Made by a program: the position numbers and the translations under genes | Shown here: positions 27,131 through 30,065 of the stretch, piece after piece | Layout: every line of letters begins with the position of its first letter | Numbering within the stretch: the first letter of the stretch is position 1 | Source of the DNA: Nitrospirota bacterium | GTDB lineage: Bacteria; Nitrospirota; Thermodesulfovibrionia; Thermodesulfovibrionales; UBA6898 | DNA length: 64,000 bases | Assembly (NCBI GenBank): GCA_016215155.1 | Contig: JACRLQ010000084.1 | Coordinates: forward strand, 1 to 64,000 | Direction: 5' to 3' | The notes under the pieces: generated by a model | The model's input: the letters and a program-made list of their open reading frames with translations, nothing else | Databases searched by the model: none | Told to the model about the DNA's origin: nothing

Positions 27131-27320
27131 GGCACTGCCGGATCATAACTCCCCATCCCTGCTTATCTTAAGAGGGGGGTGAAGAAGACACTGGAGGAAC
27201 ACAACTAGTTCCTTCCCCTTAAGGTGAGGGGAGTTTACCCGCCTCTGGCGGCGCCTCAGGCGACCAGGGGTGAGGAGGGGTTATGAAGCTGATAATTAAT
27301 GACAAAAGGAAGATATACCG
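27131..27320. repeat. Palindromic repeats between nifK and nifEN
   Basis: CTTATCTTAAGAGGGGGG at 27162-27179 is identical over 18 bases to a segment inside nifEN (27901-27918). A second hairpin, TCCCCTTA/TGAGGGGA, lies near 27215-27235, and a GGCG-rich palindrome follows. AAGGAAG before 27321 is the nifEN ribosome binding site. No sigma-54 promoter was seen here. Confidence 0.7.
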
Positions 27321-30065
27321 ATGATAACCAACGTGGACAGACTTACAGAACATGGTTGCGGAGCAGAGAGGAAGGACAAGGTATGCCGTTCGCGCGGAGG
27401 GGAATCATGCGCCTTTGACGGGGCGATGATAGTCCTCCAGCCCATCGCCGATGCCGCCCACCTGGTCCATGGCCCTATCGCCTGCTGCGGCAATTCATGG
27501 GAAGGCCGCGGCGCCTTGTCGCACGTAGGGGCACGGCACGCCGTGCCTCTGCACAAAATGGGATTCACCACGGACATGAATGAGCTGGATATTGTCTATG
27601 GTTCCGAAGAAAAGCTCCTTCGGGCCATTTTGCGGACGTTCGAGGCAGTCAGGCCGAAGGCCATATTTGTCTATGCGACCTGTGTAAGCGGCCTTACGGG
27701 GGAAGACATCGAGGCCGTCTGCAGGAAGGCTGAGACTGAACTCGACATAAAGGTCATTCCGGTCAACGCCCCGGGATTTGTCGGCCCGAAAAACCTCGGC
27801 AACCGGATTGCGGGCGAGGTGCTGCTCAACCATGTTATAGGGACTGGGGAACCACCGGATTTATCTTCACCCGTGGAAATCATAACGCCCCCTGCCCCCT
27901 CTTATCTTAAGAGGGGGGAAGATGAATATATATCAGAGAAACTGAGGGGGGTGGACATCAACCTCATAGGTGAATATAACATCGGCGGAGATCTGTGGGT
28001 CGTTGAACCGGTCCTCCGGAAGGCCGGTCTTTCGGTCCTTTCGAGGATAACGGGCGACAGCGCCTTCGAAGAGATTACCTATGCCCATCGCGCAAAACTG
28101 AATGTCGTGGTCTGCAGCAGGGCGCTTATCAATGTGGCTGTCGAGATGGAGCGCAGGTACGGCATCCCTTATATTGAGGTCTCGTTTTTTGGAAAGACCG
28201 AGATGTCGAAGGCCCTGAGGCTGATAGCGCGGAAGCTGGAAGTCGGAAGTAGGAAGCAGGGTATATCTGAAAAAGTAGAGGCAGTCATAACACATGAAGA
28301 AAAAGTCGTAGATGAAAGGCTCAGTCCATATTCTTATCTCAGGGGGAAAAAAGCGGTCCTCTATACCGGAGGCGTCAAGAGCTGGTCTTTTATCTCGGCC
28401 CTGCTTGATCTAGGGATAGAGGTCGTCGGAGTCGGCACAAAGAAGAGCACGTATGAGGACGAAAAAAAGATGAAGGAGATCCTGGGGGCTGACGCGCCGC
28501 TTCTTGAAGACGTTACACCGAAAAATCTGCTGAAGACCCTCAGGGAGCATGATGCGGACATTCTGGTTGCGGGAGGCAGAAACCAGTATCTTGCGGTCAA
28601 GGAAGGGTACCCCTTTGTCGATGTAAATCAGGAGCGCCATATTGCCTATGCTGGGTATGAGGGCCTGGTCAATCTGGCGGAGCAGATACATAACAGCATA
28701 AGGTTCTACGCAGGGACCAGAGACCGGGAATCCGGGATCAGAAATTCTCAAATTGCCGGTCCCCGGTCCCCGGTCCCAAATCCCGTGCTTATAAATCCTT
28801 TAAAGCACTCTCCCTCGATAGGAGCGGCCATGGCGCTTCAGGGTATCCACCGCGCAATACCGGTCATTCATGGGGCCCAGGGCTGCACATTTCTCGGGAA
28901 GGTCTTGCTGACGAGACATTTCAGGGAACCCATCGCGCTTGCAGGTTCAAAATTGTTTGCCGAGGATGTTGTCATGGGCAGTGAAGATGCCCTGACCAGG
29001 GTCATTGACGGCCTGCTCGAAAAAAACAGCCCTGACGTTATCGGCATTCTCACCTCGGGACTATCTGAAGTCAAAGGGGACGACATTGCGTCAGTTGTAA
29101 AAATAATCAACGGAAGGCGGACTAAGACCGGGGTAATTCATGTCCCTACCCCAGACTATGACGGCAGCCTCGAAACCGGGTATTCTCGCGCGACGGAGGC
29201 CCTCTTGTCCCTGGCGGAAGGCGGACACGATATTTATATGCCCTCCGTGCTTCCCTTCGAAGCGGACCCCGGGCAGCGTGAAATCCAGATCAATGTACTG
29301 GCGGGTCCGCACCTCACTCCGGCGGATGTGCTGGAACTTAGGGAGATCATCGAGGCCTTCGGAATGAGACCGATCATACTCCCGGACCTTTCGGCCCTGG
29401 ACGGCAGCAGGGAGGGGGTCTCTCCTCTGGCAACGGGCGGGACTACCGTTGATGAGATCCGCGCAATGGGGTCTTCGGAATTTACAATCGCGGTCGGCCC
29501 GAGCATGGAACAGCCGGCAAGGCTGCTCAAGGAAAAATTCGGCATTGAATACAGGACCATCGAAAGTCTCTCGGGGTTGAAGGCAGTAGACCATTTCCTG
29601 GAGCTGGTCAGTATGCTGAGCGGCTGCCGGGTCCCTAAAAAATACGAGCGGCAGCGACGGGTCCTGGTGGACGGCATGCGGGATGCCCACTTCTATACCG
29701 CCGGAAGGAAGGCGGCTCTGGCGCTTGAGCCGGACCAAGCGCTGCAGATGGCTAAAGTTTTGGCTGAGATGGGTATGGATATAAGTCTTGTGGTTACGCC
29801 GGTCGAATCAGCCGCAAATGCAAGGATCGCCGCGGATTGCGTGAGGACCGGGGACCTTTTTTCACTGGCTGGAGAGTTTGACATCATCCTTTCGAACTCA
29901 CATGCAAAAGACAGGGCGAAAGAACTACGGGTCCCCTTACTGCATACAGGATTCCCGGTTTTTAATAAACCTGGGAATACCGCGAAGATGACCCTAGGTT
30001 ATCGTGGGACACTGGAGCTTGTTAATGACATTGCCAATTTATTGGCCCAGGAGGTGCATTCATGA
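27321..30065 (+). CDS. nifEN: Fused FeMo-co scaffold NifE-NifN with repeat insertions
   Basis: A 914-residue fusion of the two scaffold subunits that mature NifB-co into FeMo-co. The NifE half (1-465) shows GPIACCGNSW, ATCVSGLTGEDIEAVC, GEYNIGGDLW, CSRALINVAVEMERRYG and VDVNQERH. The NifN half (about 488-914) shows SPSIGAAMALQGIHRAIPVI, HGAQGCTF and TSGLSEVKGDD. Four in-frame insertions look repeat-derived: 70-76 (palindrome 27530-27547), 192-199 (palindrome 27895-27917), 304-314 (GGAAG units) and 466-485 (GGGACC/GGTCCC linker). Separate NifE and NifN are the rule; fusions occur in some lineages. No frameshift was found. Confidence 0.95.
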   Translation: MITNVDRLTEHGCGAERKDKVCRSRGGESCAFDGAMIVLQPIADAAHLVHGPIACCGNSWEGRGALSHVGARHAVPLHKMGFTTDMNELDIVYGSEEKLLRAILRTFEAVRPKAIFVYATCVSGLTGEDIEAVCRKAETELDIKVIPVNAPGFVGPKNLGNRIAGEVLLNHVIGTGEPPDLSSPVEIITPPAPSYLKRGEDEYISEKLRGVDINLIGEYNIGGDLWVVEPVLRKAGLSVLSRITGDSAFEEITYAHRAKLNVVVCSRALINVAVEMERRYGIPYIEVSFFGKTEMSKALRLIARKLEVGSRKQGISEKVEAVITHEEKVVDERLSPYSYLRGKKAVLYTGGVKSWSFISALLDLGIEVVGVGTKKSTYEDEKKMKEILGADAPLLEDVTPKNLLKTLREHDADILVAGGRNQYLAVKEGYPFVDVNQERHIAYAGYEGLVNLAEQIHNSIRFYAGTRDRESGIRNSQIAGPRSPVPNPVLINPLKHSPSIGAAMALQGIHRAIPVIHGAQGCTFLGKVLLTRHFREPIALAGSKLFAEDVVMGSEDALTRVIDGLLEKNSPDVIGILTSGLSEVKGDDIASVVKIINGRRTKTGVIHVPTPDYDGSLETGYSRATEALLSLAEGGHDIYMPSVLPFEADPGQREIQINVLAGPHLTPADVLELREIIEAFGMRPIILPDLSALDGSREGVSPLATGGTTVDEIRAMGSSEFTIAVGPSMEQPARLLKEKFGIEYRTIESLSGLKAVDHFLELVSMLSGCRVPKKYERQRRVLVDGMRDAHFYTAGRKAALALEPDQALQMAKVLAEMGMDISLVVTPVESAANARIAADCVRTGDLFSLAGEFDIILSNSHAKDRAKELRVPLLHTGFPVFNKPGNTAKMTLGYRGTLELVNDIANLLAQEVHS
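27530..27547. repeat. Palindrome inside nifE (GGCACGGC/GCCGTGCC)
   Basis: Perfect 8-bp arms with AC in the centre, preceded by GTAGG. It encodes GARHAVP where NifE homologues have a shorter SSGS-type loop before the GFTTD motif. Confidence 0.65.
27895..27917. repeat. Palindrome inside nifE (CCCCCTCTTA/TAAGAGGGGG)
   Basis: Perfect 10-bp arms around TCT, in frame, encoding residues 192-199. The same element stands in the nifK-nifEN spacer at 27162-27179. Confidence 0.85.
28228..28262. repeat. GGAAG-type repeat inside nifE
   Basis: GGAAGCTGGAAGTCGGAAGT followed by AGGAAGCAGG. The AGCGCGGAAG start is shared with the nifH-nifD spacer repeat. It encodes a short basic insert, RKLEVGSRKQG. Confidence 0.6.
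28711..28790. repeat. Imperfect inverted repeat forming the NifE-NifN linker
   Basis: GGGACC with ACCGGGAATCCGGGA on the left faces GGTCCCCGGTCCCCGGTCCC on the right. It encodes a hydrophilic Arg/Pro-rich linker (about residues 466-488) exactly between the end of NifE and the start of NifN. Confidence 0.65.

Follow-up and report, generated by a model that had tools for sequence, protein, structure and literature searches.

Introduction

Palindromes that reside in frame in protein-coding genes are known mainly from Rickettsia and, in scattered genes, from the GTAG/CGTC class of REP elements. The Rickettsia palindromic elements (RPEs) and the protein-coding palindromes of Wolbachia are short and occur both between genes and in frame in conserved genes (PMC2229807, PMC10969869), and some REP elements have also inserted in frame in genes (PMC3733652). 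The TM_ECO/boxC elements of enterobacteria combine a C-rich arm, a G-rich arm and a mirror third strand, often as inverted pairs; in E. coli they have been described as always intergenic and as having no associated mobility gene (Holder 2015, PMC4666352).

Here we describe a palindromic element inside the nitrogenase-assembly gene nifE of a Nitrospirota bacterium, found in a 64,000-nucleotide stretch of DNA (the window) from a draft assembly of 101 contigs (genome G000). The explanation that we regard as probable is that it is one of a set of REP-like triplex elements that have DUF559 nucleases as partners and are probably mobilized by them, and that nifE keeps such insertions in a tolerant linker.

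A palindromic element lies in frame in nifE

The gene that carries the insertion is a nifE-nifN fusion, with the fused NifE entry 9i0g as its top PDB match and 3pdi also matched. Its open reading frame is intact despite the 23-mer hairpin inside it. The features of the locus are as follows.

27144 to 27285, + strand: longer member of the family, between nifK and nifE, CATAACTCCCC ... GAGGGGTTATG, which holds the 18-bp match
27321 to 30065, + strand: nifE-nifN fusion gene, 914 aa, carrier of the insertion (Pfam Oxidored_nitro twice, E 1e-195)
27526 to 27550, + strand: further palindromic repeat in frame, from a different family, TAGGGGCACGGC-AC-GCCGTGCCTCT (inverted repeat)
27864 to 27944, + strand: extra 81 bp of nifE, residues 182-208 (27 in frame), from alignment with G004 (L047) and relatives
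27881 to 27892, + strand: element head CATAACGCCCCC, presumed to supply the third strand in an intrastrand triplex (mirrors the pyrimidine arm, 7/8)
27895 to 27917, + strand: perfect hairpin with arms CCCCCTCTTA / TAAGAGGGGG and loop TCT (covariance-model match 27880-27918, E 3e-12)
27944 to 27953, + strand: putative decayed right end of the nifE element, GAGGGGGGTG, which pairs with the head

A sequence-only reading of the window had placed the palindrome CCCCCTCTTA-TCT-TAAGAGGGGG at 27895-27917 within the nifE coding sequence and an exact 18-base recurrence at 27162-27179. The first position is exact, and CTTATCTTAAGAGGGGGG was found at the second, in the nifK-nifE spacer. Dinucleotide shuffles of the window yielded no match to a palindrome of this kind. 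The nifE element is longer than the 23-mer, comprising the head, the hairpin and what is probably a decayed right end: the same head precedes the hairpin in the genomic copies as in nifE, and in the predicted DNA fold of the element (z = -3.6) the head is paired with the end at 27944-27953. The nifE copy keeps a single half-unit, and many other copies are inverted pairs. The spacer element at 27144-27285 also encloses a further palindrome, GCCTCTGGCGGCGCCTCAGGC, which may be a different repeat that has nested in it.

The second repeat in the gene, at 27526-27550, adds 5 residues to NifE within VGARHAVPL, and among the aligned relatives a similar insert was present in G013 and G010 only. With up to 3 mismatches it was found at 6 forward and 2 reverse places in the genome, compared with none for a reversed control.

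Genomic copies and mirror geometry

The sequence-only reading had proposed a genome search, in which a unique 23-mer would have spoken against a mobile element; the repeat is not unique in the window genome. The 16-mer core CTTATCTTAAGAGGGG has six exact copies, and a covariance model of the half-element, built from 15 copies, returned approximately 30 strong half-element matches, which correspond to approximately 21 elements. Approximately 4 of the elements are within conserved genes and the remainder are mostly intergenic. The intragenic copies are in nifE, a large regulator-like ATPase (for which the only Pfam match was weak, to AAA_16 and below cut-off), an MmeI-type methyltransferase and the start of feoB; the effect of the feoB copy may be limited to the translation start site. 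The copy in the MmeI-type restriction-methylation gene (C66:14657-14769) is a complete two-hairpin element in frame, and it separates the methylase and target-recognition domains. Elsewhere in the genome, a pair of half-elements lies approximately 180 bp apart (C44:1026-1285).

Each half-unit consists of a head (ATAAC[GT]CCCCC) and a 10-bp hairpin, usually accompanied by a second, inverted half-unit, and the element has one open reading frame per strand. When the head is followed away from the hairpin, its sequence mirrors that of the pyrimidine arm (triads G*G-C, A*A-T and T*A-T), and the element therefore fits an intrastrand triplex motif like that of E. coli TM_ECO/boxC. For 128 hairpins near DUF559 genes, a mirror match of 7-8 out of 8 was found on the head side in 63% and on the other side in 1.6%; the mean mirror scores (out of 8) were 6.6 for the head side, 3.5 for the other side and 5.3 for composition shuffles. 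The nifE copy has both arms and a mirror third strand, matching at 7/8 positions. The ATAAC family of nifE did not match the exact pattern CCCTCNCCC N3-6 GGGNGAGGG N3 GGGNGAGGG. At several DUF559 loci the CTCACCC family fits the published TM_ECO pattern letter for letter.

The repeats are paired with DUF559 genes

The window genome has three DUF559 (Vsr-like nuclease) genes, and every one of them lies between such elements, each with a different palindrome family. The DUF559 copy on C22 has its start codon in one head and its C-terminal residues read from the other, and C20 carries a near-identical empty version of this site, so that the filled and empty states are both present in one genome. 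In relatives, hairpins scoring at least 8 were present on both DUF559 flanks at 14 of 25 loci, compared with 3 of 246 control windows. A wider set gave hairpins in 76% of 154 DUF559 flanks, compared with 7.7% of 208 control windows situated approximately 1 kb away. At a score of at least 7, both flanks carried a hairpin at 31/47 DUF559 loci in the order and 21/22 in the other orders of the phylum. The survey outside Nitrospirota covered plasmid records of other phyla, where the figure was 6/8 plasmid DUF559 loci (Deinococcus, Azospirillum, Sphingomonas, Synechocystis and others).

The flanks are of the same class and this class follows the DUF559 clade. Left and right palindrome classes agreed at 29/32 DUF559 loci (6.3 when shuffled), and on a tree of 46 DUF559 domains (IQ-TREE) the seven head classes required 9 changes, compared with a minimum of 6 and 25.5 when shuffled; the label patterns were written after the flanks had been inspected, and the pattern used in the tree test covered ATAACCCC heads. 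An unlabelled check of shared words versus protein identity agreed with the labelled test (Mantel rho 0.28, 0/2000 permutations). The median number of ATAAC copies was 17 with the ATAAC-type DUF559 subfamily versus 0 otherwise (P = 3e-5, uncorrected for relatedness). In G000, G008 and G024 the class inserted in nifE is also the class that flanks a resident DUF559 gene, and the resident DUF559 gene of G007, whose flanks escaped automatic labelling, belongs to the ATAAC-type clade. An IS-end-like motif, GGTTCTTC..GTTTTGTGTGGGTA / GGAATCCCGGAAGAACC, was observed just outside many DUF559-palindrome loci (L099 1400-1900, L088, L104, L107 and L280), as though these loci lay within a larger repeat or within a favoured target site.

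Repeat and DUF559 gene are paired, and the nuclease probably acts on its repeat; the class-specific pairing is compatible with either direction of cause. The main rival to mobilization by the nuclease is that DUF559 genes are homing-type passengers in pre-existing palindromes, which multiply in some other way, for instance by replication slippage or gene conversion. We consider this unlikely, but it is the alternative that fares best: the C22 gene sits at a repeat junction, C20 has that repeat in its empty form, and many genomes have the repeats and no DUF559 gene, whereas insertion alone would not raise the copy number of the repeat with its cognate subfamily. A further alternative, that a Y1 (HUH) RAYT transposase moves the elements as conventional REP/REPIN-type repeats and that the DUF559 link is incidental, is improbable. 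The inverted pairing of half-units and their conserved head do resemble REPINs (PMC3116915), and seven Y1_Tnp genes are present in the genome. However, these palindromes flank not one of the seven, which speaks against a Y1/RAYT-like partner, the heads are neither GTAG nor CGTC tags, and it is the DUF559 genes (3/3) that are flanked by, and co-vary with, the palindromes.

A finding that counts against mobilization by DUF559 proteins is that the DUF559 protein VsrA of Caulobacter is tied to mismatch repair; the VsrA paper treats mismatch repair and DNA damage and nowhere uses the word palindrome (PMC12907096). We found nothing in the literature that links DUF559 with REP-like repeats, which is weak evidence as subscription papers were mostly out of reach.

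In E. coli K-12, ycjD (NC_000913.3:1351407-1351760) is a DUF559 gene, and an intact TM_ECO motif comes after it, together with degenerate ones; another E. coli strain has an intact inverted TM_ECO pair by ycjD. The number of TM-like places was 22-37 in 37 records with ycjD and 3-30 (median 9.5) in 22 records without it, counted for some records among the matches listed, and this contrast between evenly spaced records is confounded by lineage, with some ycjD-less strains at 22-30. E. coli probably belongs among the bacteria in which repeat and DUF559 gene are paired.

Different palindrome families have entered nifE at one point

Alignment of NifE with its homologues, as the sequence-only reading had suggested, revealed that the 27 extra residues are missing from most relatives. 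The sister species G004 (85% identity over the second half) lacks residues 182-208 and reads GTGEPPAVTGYDINLIGEYN in a gap-free alignment; the same residues encoded by other codons, which would have spoken against an insertion, were not present there. Between IG and NLIGEYN, most species of the order have a loop of 12 residues. A long loop (21-50 residues) was identified in the order at 13 of the 77 NifE sites that could be read and, in a second, named collection, at 13 of 51 Nitrospirota loci; with 5 genomes common to both collections, the number of distinct genomes with long inserts is 21. At 29 cyanobacterial NifE loci the loop was never longer than 12 residues. The inserts add 9-38 residues and belong to at least five unrelated sequence families:

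ATAAC: window genome, GWC2_42_7, DP16D_bin.35 and others
AAATC[CT]CCCC: G037, G008
CTCACCC: G024, L227
ACCCCTCC..CCTCCCC: G003, G117
GGGGACAGTCCC: G039, G049, G088, G089

This point of nifE is an insertion hotspot that different palindrome families have reached repeatedly, and the window element is an in-frame insertion at it. In G089 (L142) an ATAAC element is nested within a GGGGACAGTCCC element, and G102 also has a nifE copy of the repeat. Several ATAAC inserts in nifE have a common left flank, GGAAATCATAAC, and may all go back to a single ancient insertion event. A search for target-site duplications gave no clear case, and none was readable at the nifE site. Another site in NifE, after window residue 310, holds a 46-residue insert with palindrome-type peptides (NPPFPKGE) in L145 (G058) and L162 (G043), two genomes that belong to different families.

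In an AlphaFold model of NifE (27 aligned sequences; moderate quality, mean pLDDT 68), residues 182-209 have a pLDDT under 50, and this disordered segment sits between a helix and a strand that link two subdomains. The regulator-like ATPase behaves in the same way as nifE: palindromic inserts were identified at one point in G000, G012 and G003, no palindromic insert was found at that point in L304 or L306-L309, and L303 has some extra residues there with no obvious palindrome. As a second gene has recurrent inserts, repeated landing is not specific to nifE.

The possibility that the extra NifE residues are adaptive, with the palindrome as raw material retained because a longer loop helps NifEN, is remote. 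Insertion has recurred at one point, the inserts stay in frame and the A. vinelandii NifE loop is also longer in the alignment; however, the inserts have neither sequence nor length (9-38 extra residues) in common, most relatives lack them and the second gene behaves alike, which makes tolerance the simpler account. An assembly or chance artefact, conceivable for a draft genome in 101 contigs, can be dismissed, as independent assemblies have in-frame inserts at the identical point and shuffles yield no such palindrome.

The proposal that a palindromic element can land in genes without breaking them is thus upheld by its absence from G004 and most relatives, its dispersal in and between genes and the presence of other families at the same point. 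That reading had not recognized the longer unit, the fit to a triplex motif, the recurrence of insertion at this point or the pairing with DUF559 nuclease genes. Our search found no report of palindromes in nifE; most subscription papers were out of reach, and this is weak evidence.

Discussion

One copy of a DUF559-paired, REP-like repeat that fits a triplex motif entered nifE in frame, at a flexible linker between two domains. We propose that it survived there through an open frame on each strand and a linker that tolerates 9-38 extra residues. With the head as mirror strand, a single strand of the element could fold into an intrastrand triplex. Each palindrome family is paired with its own DUF559 subfamily (Vsr-like PD-(D/E)XK), with the genes lying between copies, and most likely the nuclease would recognize its own hairpin or triplex and start copying or movement. 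RAYT transposases are thought to do likewise for REPs.

Unrelated families have struck a conserved nitrogenase-assembly enzyme at one point in many species, so that nature has in effect run an insertion experiment on one of its linkers. Holder et al. (PMC4666352) reported that mobility functions had never turned up beside the triplex motif, which is abundant in E. coli, and the DUF559 pairing, including that of ycjD in K-12, supplies a testable mobility candidate. If true, this would give a role to a family still labelled as a domain of unknown function. A wider reading is that the C-rich triplex-forming palindromes of bacteria in general, including TM_ECO/boxC of E. coli, form a single class of mobile repeat moved by DUF559 proteins, a non-HUH counterpart of REP-RAYT, whose in-frame inserts repeatedly remodel enzyme linkers such as that of NifE. 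We put this forward tentatively, at somewhat less than an even chance.

Comparison with the described systems places the element between them. The likeness to RPEs in in-frame residence, raised in the sequence-only reading, is borne out: this repeat is likewise dispersed, lies in frame in conserved genes and is missing from orthologues, and in both systems there is one open frame and the protein tolerates the insert. In contrast, RPEs are 100-150 bp and, as far as described, restricted to Rickettsia, a triplex head or partner nuclease was not found described in the RPE reports, and here five or more unrelated families share one point of a gene across many genera. We do not claim membership of the RPE families. 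The VsrA protein of Caulobacter has the same nuclease domain, PF04480, as the DUF559 proteins studied here. With TM_ECO, the element shares the architecture of arms and mirror head and the inverted pairs, but the ATAAC family has A+T in stem and head, and copies also lie in frame inside genes. The GTAG/CGTC tag of REPs is absent from the foot of the palindrome, where the consensus head is ATAAC[GT]CCCCC, a mirror third strand. Like REP/REPIN-RAYT systems, many copies here are pairs of inverted half-units with a conserved head beside the palindrome, and a small nuclease gene is flanked by cognate repeats in class-specific pairing; the partner of REPs is a HUH Y1 enzyme, whereas the partner here is a PD-(D/E)XK, Vsr-like DUF559 protein.
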